Assembly: GCA_026004775.1 (NCBI GenBank)
Contig: BPJU01000002.1
Coordinates: 490,435-554,434, forward strand
From: Pirellulaceae bacterium
GTDB lineage: Bacteria > Planctomycetota > Planctomycetia > Pirellulales > Pirellulaceae
Length of the DNA stretch: 64,000 bases
Direction of reading: 5' to 3'
Shown: piece by piece, positions 12,149 to 31,383 of the stretch
How the letters are laid out: each line of letters starts with the position of its first letter
How positions within the stretch are numbered: the stretch's first letter is position 1
Program-made: the position numbers and the translations under genes
The notes under the pieces: generated by a model
Told to the model about the DNA's origin: nothing
The model's database searches: none
What the model saw: only the letters and a program-made list of their open reading frames with translations

Positions 12149-12432
12149 CTCCCTCTCCCCCTTTAGGCCGTGCAAACCCTACTCCCTCTCCCCCTTTAGG
12201 GGGAGAGGGCCGGGGTGAGGGGGTTAGCTATCACTCTGCCCCCCTCACCCTGCCCTCTCCCCCCGCAAGCGGGGGGAGAGGGAGTGGGTAAATTGTGCTC
12301 CGCAAAAGCGCAACGAGCGCGCCGGAAGGGTCTCTGTGGCACTTTAGGGGGGTGGGTCGTGGTGAAGGGGTTAGCCATCCTTCTGCCCCCCTCACCCTGC
12401 CATCTCCCACCGCAAGAGGGGGAGAGAAGCTA
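12149..12432. repeat. GC-rich palindromic repeat cluster (dispersed-repeat type)
   Basis: Repeated units alternate between a 'ccctctccccc' arm and a 'gggggagaggg' arm. The 20-nt start 'actccctctccccctttagg' occurs at 12149-12168 and again at 12181-12200. The clearest hairpin lies at about 12254-12283, with 'ccctctcccccc' paired to 'ggggggagaggg' around gcaagc. A related unit lies at about 12395-12426. The unit 'ggggttagc(t/c)atc' also occurs twice (about 12222 and 12368). This is the class of sequence often mistranslated as 'LTPALSPEGER'. It sits directly upstream of an IS110 transposase gene. Confidence 0.75.
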
Positions 12433-26217: not shown

Positions 26218-26595
26218 TCAACGGCAAAATTTTTCGCTCCTACGGGGGCCGCACGAAGGACCAGCATATCGCGGAGCCGGTAGGGGCACGGCATGCCGTG
26301 CCCCTACGACGTTTGGGGCGGCGTGATGGGCAATCACCAGGATGCCGTGGACGTGGTTTGGCATGACGATGAATGTATCCAATTGGACATGCGGGAAATG
26401 GTTCGGTATGTCCGTCCAACATTGTTGTGCGATGTGCCCCGCCTCGTTCAACCGCATCTCCCCCGCCACCACCTCGCCGAACAGACACAACCTGTCCTTT
26501 GTGCAGATGGTGACAAAATACGCCGCTGGCTGCGCGTAATCATATCCCGGCAGGCGAATGCTGCGCCGATGGTGCTTTTCGGGATCGTAGGCCAT
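26218..26595 (-). pseudogene. Truncated REP-associated tyrosine transposase (RAYT copy 1)
   Basis: The N-terminal 100 residues match the neighbouring RAYT copy 2 with about eight substitutions. They include the HUH site 'IVMPNHVHGILVI'. Similarity stops at the REP-like palindrome 26280-26307, which is read as 'VGARHAVPL'. The next 20 residues are unrelated and end in a stop. The C-terminal half with the catalytic tyrosine helix is missing, so the gene is inactive. RAYTs are Y1-type single-strand transposases thought to spread REP sequences. Confidence 0.85.
26280..26307. repeat. REP-like palindrome, unit 1 (inside RAYT copy 1)
   Basis: A perfect 28-bp palindrome: 14 nt gtaggggcacggca followed by its reverse complement. 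It is followed by acgac, as in the other units. It lies in frame within RAYT copy 1 and marks the point where that copy loses similarity to copy 2. Confidence 0.92.
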
Positions 26596-26648
26596 GACTA
26601 TACTTTCCTCGCCTTCTCCGGACGCGCGCGGACAAGCCGATGACCGCC

Positions 26649-27314
26649 TCATGTGCTGCCAAACCACACCTCTTCGTCGGGGTTTCTGCCCGTACAGTCG
26701 GGGTTCTCGCGGTCCAGATGCCAGCGTATGGGGTTGGTGGCGATGTATTGGCGGATGCGTTGCAGCGATGCTTCGTTGCGGATGATGTGTTCGTAATAGT
26801 TGCGTTGCCAGACGGGCGTGCTGGGCATGCCCCGCAGGATGTTGATATGGCGGGTGGTGGCGGATTTGAACGAGCGCACGATGGTGGGTATGGAACCGTG
26901 AACCGGTTTGCCGAATTGTTCACCGGTGGGGTTATGGGACGCCGTCCGTGGTGGTGGTAGGGGCACGGCATGCCGTGCCCCTACCGGCCGTACCCCATCC
27001 ATCACCAGGGCATGCCGTGCCCCTACGACGTTTGGGGCGGCGTGGTGGGCAATCACCAGGATGCCGTGGACGTGGTTTGGCATGATGATGAATGCATCCA
27101 ATTGGACATGCGGGAAATGGTCTGGTATGTCCGTCCAACATTGGTGTGCGATGCAACCCGCATCGTTCAACCGCATTTCCCCCGCCACCACCTCGCCGAA
27201 CAGACACAACCTGTCCTTTGTGCAGATGGTGACAAAATACGCCGCTGGCTGCGCGTAATCATATCCCGGCAGGCGAATGCTGCGCCGATGGTGCTTTTCC
27301 TGGTCGTACGGCAT
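26649..27314 (-). CDS. REP-associated tyrosine transposase (RAYT copy 2)
   Basis: 221 residues, apparently complete. Y1_Tnp features: 'IRLPGYDYAQPAAYFVTICT' at the N-terminus, the HUH motif 'IIMPNHVHGILVI' (about 77-89), then the catalytic region 'VWQRNYYEHIIRNEASLQRI', with the nucleophilic tyrosine in the YYEH pair, and 'YIATNPIRWHLDREN'. Between the two lies an unusual loop, 'VVGARHALVMDGVRPVGARHAVPL', which is the translation of one full and one half REP-like palindrome. Start ATG at 27312-27314. It cleaves single-stranded REP hairpins in known systems. This is the only one of the three copies that reads through intact. Confidence 0.9.
   Translation of the reverse strand: MPYDQEKHHRRSIRLPGYDYAQPAAYFVTICTKDRLCLFGEVVAGEMRLNDAGCIAHQCWTDIPDHFPHVQLDAFIIMPNHVHGILVIAHHAAPNVVGARHALVMDGVRPVGARHAVPLPPPRTASHNPTGEQFGKPVHGSIPTIVRSFKSATTRHINILRGMPSTPVWQRNYYEHIIRNEASLQRIRQYIATNPIRWHLDRENPDCTGRNPDEEVWFGST
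26957..26984. repeat. REP-like palindrome, unit 2 (inside RAYT copy 2)
   Basis: The same perfect 28-bp palindrome (gtaggggcacggca plus its reverse complement) as at 26280. A half unit, gcatgccgtgcccctacgac, follows at 27010-27029, so the repeat is partly doubled inside the coding sequence. Confidence 0.92.
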
Positions 27315-27368
27315 GGCTATACACTCCTTGCCTTCTCCAGCCGCACGCAGATCAGCGCGATCACCACC

Positions 27369-27997
27369 TCACGCGCTGCCGAACCACATTTCCTCGTCGG
27401 GGTTTCTGCCCGTGTGATCGGGGTTCTCGCGGTCTAGATGCCAGCGTATGGGGTTGGTGGCGATGTATTGGCGGATGCGTTGCAGCGATGCTTCGTTGCG
27501 GATGATGTGTTTGTAATAATTGCGTTGCCAGACACGCCCACCCGGTGTGCCGCGCACGGCGTTGATGCGTTTGGTGGTGGCGGATTTGAACGCACGGACA
27601 ATGGTAGGAATGGAACCGGATACGGGGGCACCCAATCGTTCCACGGTGGCGTCATGGTCGGCCGTAGGGGCACGGCGGCGCCATGTAGGGGCACGGCATG
27701 CCGTGCCCCTACGACGTCATCATCCACAATCCAAATGATGCCATGCACGTGGTTGGGCATGACCACGAATTCATCCTCGTGCAATCGCACATACGGGCGG
27801 ATCTGCGCGGTCTTCAACCATTCTTCGCGCACGATTTCGCCCCACGGGTTCAACCGCATTTGACCATCCACCACTTCGCCGAAGAGGCACATGCGATCCT
27901 GCGTGACGATGGTAAAAAAATACGCCCCGGGTTGGGAATAATAGTATCCCTTGAGCCGAATGCTGTGGCGATGGTGCTTTTCGGGATCGTATTTCAT
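27369..27997 (-). pseudogene. Frameshifted RAYT (copy 3)
   Basis: The N-terminal half (27997 down to about 27650) reads 'IRLKGYYYSQPGAYFFTIVT' and the HUH motif 'FVMPNHVHGIIWI'. The C-terminal half lies in another frame (27644-27369): 'GSIPTIVRAFKSATTKRIN', 'VWQRNYYKHIIRNE' and 'YIATNPIRWHLDREN', nearly the same as copy 2. One frameshift near 27625-27650, at a CCCCC run, separates them. The N-terminal half differs clearly from copies 1 and 2, while the C-terminal half is nearly identical to copy 2, so conversion or recombination is likely. It also carries a REP palindrome between HUH and Tyr. Confidence 0.87.
27685..27712. repeat. REP-like palindrome, unit 3 (inside RAYT copy 3)
   Basis: A third perfect copy of the 28-bp palindrome, again followed by acgac. 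An additional imperfect unit, gtaggggcacggcggcgcc, begins at 27664. Confidence 0.92.
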
Positions 27998-28019
27998 AGG
28001 TTCTTGCTTTTTGGGCGAA

Positions 28020-29308
<1,289 letters not shown>

Positions 29309-29319
<11 letters not shown>

Positions 29320-31383
29320 GGCTCTGCTCCGTTGAGTTTCTGGTTTCAAACGCTTTATTTACTTCATCAAATATCCGACTAGCAGTACCCCACACTTCAT
29401 CAGGGATTTTTTCGGGTTTTGAGGTGATCCAATCTCGCAAGACGGCAGCAGGCCGCCACTTCTCGAACCGATCAGAACGCTTTCGCTTGAACAAAGCTAT
29501 AACCTTGTTCACGACTCCTTCTATGCTCTTCTCTTCTTCGCCCAGGGCCAAATCGGGTGTCGAGTAAGCTTCCCGAACAGCTTCCATGTACAAGTCTTCT
29601 GGGAATATATCCTCAAGCTGCGCCTTCGGTTTGCCCTCCACGAAGTCACCCAGGAAAAGGCACCGCCCTTCCATTGCCTGCCAATAATTGCTCGGATAAC
29701 TTTTGGCCTTCTTTTCGTCCGGGTTCATCACCATCAAGGAGCGCTACGATTTCAACATCATGGCCAATTAACATGCTCGCAAGGGGCAATAGTTTATTGA
29801 GTCCGGCGGACGGCACGATGACAATTTCGTCGCGCAAAGCCGCTTTGCCCTGCTGCCGAAGCCCTTGGTCAAACGCTTTGAGTATCCAATAATCTGTCCA
29901 ATCCTTCAACAATGAGCTGGCGTTTTGCAATGAAGAGCGATTGCACGAGTTGATAGCCAAGCCCTGCCTGGAGAGGAAACAAACGCGTCTTTATCTCGTG
30001 GCCAAACATCTTCTGATACCTTCGTCGTACCGTCTTCTGCTTCGTAGACGATCCGCACCCGTTCCAGATGGTCTGCGTCCACCATAAAAGGCGAGTGCGT
30101 GGTGTACATGGTTTGATTGTCTCTGGACAGCTTTTCAAGGAACTTGACGACCTTTGCCTGAGCCGTTCCATGCATGTGCAAGCCGGGCTCGTCGAGCAAG
30201 AGAATGGCATTCTGATGGGCACCCTGTGCCTCAACGAGAAAGACAGTAAAGAACGAGAAGAAATACTGCATACCCAAGCTGCGTTGGTCCAGCTCTATTT
30301 CGCTTGACTCAAGGTCATCAGAGACCCAAATGCGAAAGTAGTCCGCCATCCGCTTGATAGTGGAACTTGTGCCTGCGCTGCTCCCACCAATCTTGAAACT
30401 TTGAGGTCATGGCACTAGAAGCTGAGGAAAAATGGATGGCTCTTTCGTCTACCAGACGTCGGATTTGCTCGTTAGGTGCTTGACCTGGCTGATGCTGACC
30501 TAAAGTCGCTAAGCGCCTCACATCTAGTCCCACATATTCAAAAAGGCAGCGTGTTGTACGTACACGAGGAGCGGGAGGATTCTGGTTCAGTTGTTGAGCG
30601 GAAAGTAGGAAGGTGGATGGCGCTGTCAATCACATCATAGCGATCGAAGTAGATGAACTTTGGAAGATTGTTTCCAACCCATTGCTTGGCTTGCGCCAGT
30701 TCATCACCAAAGGAAGCGCGCTCAAGCAAGCTTTTGGCTTTTTGGCTTATATCCCGGAGAAGGTCTTTTTGCCATTGCTCGTTCGATTGCCTAGTGATGA
30801 CGTCCGTAAGCCTCTGGACTTCGGCTTTGGGTACAAGTTCATCAGGTTGCCTTGCAGATTGCTGACTTTCAAGCTGATTGAGAGTCTGAAGGAGAGCGTT
30901 TTTAATTTCTCCGAGATCATCGCCCCTTTCCTTCGGGTGCGGTGAGATCGCTCAGCGTTTGCCGGATCTCTCCAATGGCAGTCTTGAATTCATTACGAGT
31001 CAAGACAGAAAGTAGAAGGAGCGGGTTCAAATTGTACGGTCAATGTCCACGAGTAATGGCGTGTACATGTTACTTGCTTAACGTCCGCAAGTGCTGAGCA
31101 TATTTTGGTAAGCTGTTCGCGGTCGCTTTCGTCAAGCTCAAACTTGCCGCTTGCTACAGGCCAATCTTGCCTTTGGAATTCGTCAGTATAGCGCCGACGT
31201 GGAAATTCTTTTAGCCCATCGTACTTTTCGCCATCGGAACGGATTCAGTTTGGACAGACCTCTAAAGAGAGCGGACTTACCAGCTTCATTTTTCCCAACA
31301 AAAGCGGTAAGGTCACGCACTGTAACCGAGCCACTATCTTGTACTTTCTTGTAGTTTTGAACACGAAAAGCTACGAGTTTCAT
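29309..31383 (-). pseudogene. OLD-family ATPase/TOPRIM nuclease remnant
   Basis: The start 'MKLVAFRVQNYKKVQDSG' with P-loop 'GKNEAGKSAL' lies at 31383. A one-base insertion after 'LSKLNP' shifts the frame. Later pieces in different frames include 'WVGNNLPKFIYFDRYDV', 'PPAPRVRTTRCLFEYVGLDV', Walker B 'AILLLDEPGLHMHG', 'TMYTTHSPFMVDADHLERV', and TOPRIM pieces 'IVPSAGLNKLLPLASML' and 'VALLDGDEPGRKEGQ'. The tail '[15 protein letters not shown]' follows. OLD-type proteins combine an ABC-like ATPase with a TOPRIM nuclease and serve in phage defence. At least four frame changes make it nonfunctional. Its end overlaps the hsdS start by about 10 nt, so the genes were cotranscribed. Confidence 0.88.

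Follow-up and report, generated by a model that had tools for sequence, protein, structure and literature searches.

How families of REP palindromes arise, and how they stay matched to their RAYT transposase after transfer between distant bacteria, is the question raised by a tandem array of RAYT genes that carry palindromes within their own coding sequences. If such a palindrome is an internal copy of the substrate, the answer would be simple, since the enzyme would be inseparable from its hairpin: a founder copy of the substrate would be locked to the enzyme, the same letters would code for protein and substrate, and the transfer of one gene would be enough to found a population of REPs in another genome. 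The array described here lies in a 64,000-nt stretch of DNA, the whole of which we call the window. The original prediction, made from the letters alone, was that three adjacent RAYT genes each carry the same palindrome in frame between the HUH motif and the catalytic tyrosine. That observation of embedded palindromes is sound, with corrections. The features are as follows, with palindromes lacking a strand assignment marked as unstranded.

26218..26667, minus strand: RAYT copy 1, N half only; its homology to copy 2 ends at the palindrome
26280..26307, unstranded: 28-bp palindrome where copy 1 homology is lost
26649..27314, minus strand: RAYT copy 2, intact Y1 HUH transposase of 221 aa (HUH at residues 81-83, GTAG-reading motif at 169-179, Tyr 190 in YIATNP)
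26957..26984, unstranded: embedded 28-bp double-foot GTAG REP palindrome in the copy 2 loop (residues 111-119, VGARHAVPL)
27009..27026, unstranded: extra half unit GGCATGCCGTGCCCCTAC in the copy 2 loop
27369..27644, minus strand: C half of RAYT copy 3, holding the catalytic Tyr and read in a different frame
27434..27997, minus strand: RAYT copy 3, N half with the HUH motif; the frame is lost in the loop
27664..27676, unstranded: extra half unit in the copy 3 loop
27685..27712, unstranded: embedded 28-bp palindrome in the copy 3 loop
28013..28036, minus strand: REP-like palindrome of the GTAG type whose stem differs (GTAGGGGCGAATCGTGATTCGCCC), 15 nt upstream of where copy 3 starts

The perfect 28-bp palindrome GTAGGGGCACGGCATGCCGTGCCCCTAC occurs exactly at 26280-26307, 26957-26984 and 27685-27712, and its ends read GTAG...CTAC, the form of a double-foot REP (GT[AG]G ... 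C[TC]AC). All three copies translate on the minus strand as VGARHAVPL, downstream of MPNHVHGI. No such palindrome appeared in 100 dinucleotide shuffles of the window, and a search of Rfam gave no match at the window palindromes. The predicted one and a half units of copy 2 were confirmed (a 13-bp half unit at 27014-27026), and copy 3 likewise has its own half unit. What had to be corrected was the count of working genes: the exact 28-mer, its reading and its place behind MPNHVHGI are common to all three copies, but only copy 2 is a single open frame, which has the catalytic Tyr and the GTAG-reading motif as well as the HUH motif (H81, H83), with the REP in frame between HuH and Y. Copy 3 is split by a frameshift at the loop, and the C half of copy 1 is absent. 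Elsewhere in the window, at 12184-12282, there are two other perfect long-stem hairpins (CCCTCTCCCCC...GGGGGAGAGGG), about 43 bp apart.

The protein encoded by copy 2 has the core of a Y1 HUH enzyme. When it was compared with 73 relatives, H81, H83, Y190 and N194 were invariant and P195 nearly so; in the GTAG-reading motif, W169 was invariant, Q170 and R179 nearly so, and E175 and H176 were kept in fewer than 90%. This motif, WQRNYYEHIIR, aligns with WQPRFWEHAIR of the E. coli TnpA-REP structure 4ER8, the GTAG-reading roles of its W, Q, E, H and R residues being taken from the part of PMC6006769 drawn on here. PF01797 matched the C half only of copy 2, with 24.1 bits against a cut-off of 23, and the model for REP-associated tyrosine transposases, NF047646, scored 61.4 bits on the C half, under its cut-off of 80. 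The fold of the predicted model resembles those of 4ER8 and ISDra2 TnpA. In the AlphaFold model, residues 91-130 have a mean pLDDT of 43-54 per block while the flanking cores reach 96-98, so that the loop joining the HUH and Tyr halves is likely disordered and likely tolerates the repeat, as one alternative of the original prediction had it. A type I restriction specificity gene (PF01420, 28591-29349, minus strand) adjoins the array and seems, by eye, to continue in another frame (28245-28742; no Pfam match); an AAA / AbiEii-like ORF lies at 29906-30349.

Copy 1 ceases to resemble copy 2 at its palindrome, just as had been read from the letters: the five 60-nt blocks before the palindrome are 98, 100, 87, 97 and 96% identical, past it there is no recognisable homology between the two copies, and the local match to copy 2 starts inside the palindrome. 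A long local match, offset by about 700 bp, extends from inside the copy 1 palindrome (26287) to 27308. Between copies 2 and 3, block identity is 58-75% in the N half and about 70% just behind the loop, and the last three blocks reach 97, 92 and 83%. A clean swap of N half and C half at the palindrome was considered for copies 2 and 3 and rejected, since the near-identity starts in the C tail. The identity blocks and the offset match suggest the duplication of a segment that begins in the C tail of one copy and reaches into the next copy as far as its palindrome, which forms the far end. From the position of the break we infer that the palindrome may have been the point of joining; a break exactly at the palindrome is found in copy 1 only.

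These relationships bear on a reading that is confined to the window, namely that the array is a decaying relic, one intact gene with two broken tandem duplicates, and that its palindromes are a single event copied along. It accounts for the dS of only 0.11 between the N halves of copies 1 and 2 and for the near-identity of copies 2 and 3 across the C tail, but not readily for the N halves of copies 2 and 3, which are distant (dS 1.1, dN/dS 0.26, protein 62% identical) and nonetheless share all 28 bp exactly. We regard it as doubtful. It is a statement about origin, and it does not exclude the explanation that we favour below.

Within its own genome the palindrome is confined to the array. The 22-bp core, with up to 3 mismatches, was found at three places in 6,143,060 bases (30 contigs, 99.9% complete), all of them in the RAYT cluster. 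A looser pattern, GTAGGGGC-N12-GCCC, was found at four places in the genome, again all in the cluster (the three units and 28013-28036), with one match for the backward control. Besides the window cluster, PF01797 matched at one further place in the genome. The original prediction was staked on units being more frequent inside RAYT genes than their genome-wide density implies; the count was three of three inside, which, with the 12 of 131 copies in other genomes given below, leaves the prediction unrefuted, and the general REP density of the genome was rejected as a cause since all three copies lie inside the cluster. With three copies in 6.14 Mb, the many dispersed extragenic cognate REPs of a REPtron are not found in this genome.

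The same 28 letters recur in distant bacteria. An untargeted scan of contigs of other genomes for the exact 28-mer gave at least 131 palindromes in at least 120 stretches and at least 66 assemblies; among the matches listed, 12 of the 131, in 11 assemblies, stand in frame behind a RAYT HUH motif, and these in-loop copies encode either VGARHAVPL or RGTACRAPT. Again among the matches listed, the identical 28-mer occupies the same loop in genomes labelled as Chlorobiaceae, Nitrosomonas, Syntrophaceae, Nitrospira, Desulfobulbaceae, Dehalococcoidia, Omnitrophica and Uhrbacteria, most of the 28-mer carriers being metagenome bins, of which single labels may be wrong. Of the 41 copies in 12 low-copy genomes (1-7 core copies), which had been selected for a RAYT-linked copy, 14 were inside a RAYT match and another 9 no more than 300 bp away from one. 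Three genomes were rich in core copies, with 29, 242 and 40, of which 0, 1 and 0 were inside a RAYT.

Single cases among these genomes are worth recording. Nitrosomonas halophila has two RAYTs 3.4 kb apart (L033 and L099) with the 28-mer in both loops, and these are the only two copies in the genome at up to 2 mismatches; the L099 gene is frameshifted near its end. The genome with 242 copies of the 22-bp core in 6.0 Mb is a Chloroflexi MAG (G259, JACRPS), whose one core copy in a RAYT loop belongs to a gene with a stop codon in the region of the WQ motif. In the C half of a Syntrophaceae RAYT (L050), a second, slightly altered copy of the palindrome, TAAGGGCACGGCATGCCGTGCCCTTA, stands in frame after the GTAG-reading motif and before the catalytic Tyr.

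For a broader view of where palindromes sit in RAYT genes, we surveyed two phyla with a profile (A1) of ten palindrome-bearing RAYTs; as it was built from palindrome bearers, its ranking may favour such genes. At E up to 1e-10 it matched in 40 of 246 genomes of the window's phylum, and at E up to 1e-15 in 34 of 146 genomes sampled from the phylum to which a Nostoc genome belongs (the centre included); 72 of the 74 and 63 of the 65 listed places, respectively, fell within the analysed loci. Counted were the 101 genes, window copies 2 and 3 among them, with enough profile coverage and no more than 330 nt from N half to C half, single halves being left out. Palindromes with an arm of at least 9 were present in the loop of 50 of the 101 genes and in the N half and the C half of one gene each. 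By phylum, the loop counts were 25 of 45 genes in the window's and 25 of 56 in the cyanobacterial sample, with 0 and 1 in the N half and 1 and 0 in the C half. Shuffled loops contained 0.41 palindromes on average and at most 2, which together with the window shuffles led us to reject chance as their source, and the placement in the loop holds across five thresholds. The reading frame was open through the loop in 48 of the 50 genes with a loop palindrome (the other two are frameshifted, one of them window copy 3) and in 96 of the 101 overall. Since about half of the genes have no recognisable loop palindrome, it is dispensable. In a tree of 50 RAYTs, from which L045 was left out as the same gene as L163, the well-supported groups L131-L133, L141/L167 and L144/L170/L171 each have, by eye, a common palindrome family. 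In four cyanobacterial genes (L218, L255, L260 and L241) the loop has lengthened by tandem repetition, as though it could also expand like a short tandem array; in L260, for example, GLHSEGLHSGG recurs many times.

The loop palindrome tends to match the palindromes that flank its own gene. In 36 genes with both, the mean similarity to the own flank was 0.763, compared with a mean of 0.316 when loops and flanks were permuted; none of 20,000 permutations was as high, the largest giving 0.442. The own flank was the best or tied for the best in 28 of the 36 genes and was not the best in the other 8. Compared with the flank of the nearest relative, the own flank was better in 21 genes, equal in 9 and worse in 6. 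Four genes (L144, L131, L165 and L013) have three matching copies, 5' of the gene, in the loop and 3' of it, and 14 genes with a loop palindrome have no flank palindrome at all. In L165 and L159 the changes that set the flanks apart from the loop copy are paired and leave the stem perfect (TGTAGATGC...GCATCTACA and TGTAGTGGC...GCCACTACA), which points to the pairing being kept. The window itself does not show this matching. No palindrome flanks copy 2 within 300 bp, or within 400 bp of its core, the palindromes nearest to it being the loop copies of the neighbouring RAYTs, and the sole flank palindrome of copy 3 is the one with the other stem, 15 nt upstream, for a loop-flank similarity of 0.20.

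The embedded palindrome is read in more than one frame. Among the loop copies in open genes that have GTAG feet (31; the count leaves out the 21 of 52 loop copies without the GTAG letters), 19 read it as GTA-G and 12 as xGT-AGG, the third frame containing TAG. The RAYT core around it is under purifying selection, judged from dN/dS values of 0.08-0.21 in the RAYT cores of the ten relative pairs for which the ratio is defined, not all of them independent; an eleventh pair had zero synonymous change in the core. We then compared synonymous change between loop and core in pairs that were reciprocal best matches and were picked by core protein score alone. Of 23 such pairs, 12 had a core pS of 0.05 to 0.62, a loop palindrome being present in 7 of the 12. 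In those seven pairs the REP codons showed 1.0 synonymous change in 48.7 sites, where 14.1 were expected from the core rate, while the rest of the same loops showed 29.2 changes in 108.0 sites; over all 12 pairs the values were 54.2 in 217.8 for the rest of the loop and 277.2 in 1030.2 for the core. The Poisson probability of the deficit in the REP codons is 1e-5. A pair enters the test only if the palindrome can be recognised in one of its members or both; with half of the expectation removed to allow for this, the probability is about 0.007. With its codons nearly frozen and the rest of the loop changing at the core rate, the embedded REP looks to be maintained at the level of DNA or RNA.

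A near-exclusive site in the loop, a match to the gene's own flanks, the use of both stop-free frames and near-zero synonymous change in the REP codons are thus shown in the relatives. The encoded peptide could matter, for instance as a recognition loop, and it is largely kept within one close clade (L131, L132 and L133). However, the same DNA gives the unrelated peptides VGARHAVPL and RGTACRAPT in its two frames, synonymous sites are fixed along with the others, and the loop is predicted to be disordered; conservation at the peptide level was rejected on the first two grounds, and we find this explanation scarcely credible. A different possibility is that REPs often insert near their own RAYT, that only insertions into the floppy loop survive, and that the insert is inert, which is close to the view of Quentin et al. 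2018 in the part of that paper (PMC6006769) considered here. In its favour, the loop is predicted to be disordered, half of the genes do without a loop palindrome, expanded loops occur, and REPs are known inside unrelated genes (as described in the part of PMC3733652 used here). It does not explain why REP codons should stay nearly unchanged synonymously when the remainder of those loops evolves at the core rate. A pure passenger is therefore disfavoured on the sequence comparisons, and we consider it unlikely.

The synonymous constraint would also arise without selection if the loop copy were repeatedly overwritten from other REPs, by conversion or by strand exchange of the RAYT. Loop and flank copies do match within genes, and other copies that could serve as a source are present in six of the genomes: G259 (242), G206 (33), G337 (9), G366 (15), G142 (8) and G195 (6). 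Two of these, G337 and G366, form one of the seven tested pairs, and of their 9 and 15 copies with up to 2 mismatches 4 and 3 are exact, so that overwriting is possible there. On the other hand, all three exact copies of the window's own genome are in RAYTs; G250 and G248 have no exact copy outside RAYTs (1 of 1 and 2 of 2 inside), the completeness of most assemblies being unstated; G369 and G379 have one exact copy each, in the loop, besides 1 and 9 copies at 2 mismatches; and G153 has a single copy, in the loop, with one mismatch. G320 has two exact copies, both at the RAYT. Genomes without source copies hence exist, and overwriting cannot explain every case, while some of the low-copy genomes could have received their copy recently by transfer. 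On the counts made, L221/L242, a pair with little divergence (core pS 0.09), was the only one of the seven in which neither side had an exact outside copy. The synonymous test on these pairs fits selection and overwriting alike and does not separate them. Taking these observations together, overwriting without selection strikes us as rather improbable as the general explanation.

The explanation that we favour, tentatively and with somewhat less than even confidence, is that the window holds a tandem array of RAYTs like those of subclass 2.4, with a self-inserted cognate double-foot REP in the coding loop that is kept for its DNA or RNA form. The cognate REP would reach the gene through the strand-transfer activity of the RAYT itself; a working enzyme would survive only those insertions that fall in the loop and keep the frame, in one of the two frames free of TAG; and the hairpin would then be retained since its copy in DNA or mRNA serves the RAYT. 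The likeliest benefit may be that enzyme and substrate move as one piece, a self-contained REPtron, and a further one could be autoregulation through binding of the hairpin in the gene's own single strand. A function as self-linked substrate or autoregulatory hairpin is what we would propose from these patterns. In the window, the truncation of copy 1 also falls at the hairpin. Counted against this explanation are the dispensability of the loop palindrome, the genes whose own flank is not the best match or has no palindrome, the lack of loop-flank matching in the window, the broken state of two of the three window copies, the dN/dS of 0.44 between copies 1 and 2 (N half), the possible overwriting in G337 and G366, and the weaker probability of the relaxed synonymous test. 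For subclass 2.4 in general, the internal REP may be a selected DNA or RNA element, either a founder copy of the substrate or an autoregulatory site, and not a scar, a proposal to which we give only guarded credence. The original prediction had offered, as its other alternative, that the repeat is a substrate through which the transposase targets, regulates or converts its own gene family; this alternative has some support, in that the repeat behaves like a maintained DNA or RNA element, and the targeting, regulation and conversion by the enzyme are hypothetical.

The phenomenon in the window is known, and the idea of the original prediction is in this respect not new. In the part of Quentin et al. 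2018 (PMC6006769) drawn on here, in-frame REPs between HuH and Y are reported as unique to TnpA-REP subclass 2.4, which corresponds to RAYT group 4 of Bertels et al. 2017; double-foot REPs are described, and it is suggested that the variable region may matter little for activity. What the present analysis adds to the literature it covered are its measurements of loop-flank matching, of frame use and of the synonymous constraint, the supplement of PMC6006769 (Figure S10) lying outside that scope, and a limited search of this literature found no published account of the synonymous freeze.

The window array shares with subclass 2.4 a Y1 HUH enzyme, a double-foot GTAG REP that lies in frame between HuH and Y, a long and variable distance between HuH and Y, and a patchy spread over phyla. 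It adds to the subclass as described a tandem array with two broken copies. The insertion is deemed probably inconsequential in the part of PMC6006769 considered; the present analysis measured the match between loop and flank and the constraint on synonymous sites, and counted copies genome-wide. E. coli TnpA-REP, which belongs to a REPtron of subclass 2.2 (4ER8), has the same fold, and its GTAG-reading W, Q, E, H and R align with those of copy 2, but its REPs flank the gene, internal REPs being unique to subclass 2.4 according to the same part of PMC6006769. TnpA-REP proteins of groups 2 and 3 cleave their cognate REP hairpins, as stated in the portion of PMC8266576 used here. The portion of Di Nocera et al. 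2013 (PMC3733652) used here describes GTAG REPs, REPs inside unrelated genes and the RPE elements of Rickettsia, and mentions REPs that overlap the ends of RAYT genes but none in the middle of one. Like the palindromes of the window, those REPs and RPE elements are read through in frame within proteins; the host genes described there are not the cognate transposase, whereas in the window array the palindrome lies within the RAYT itself.
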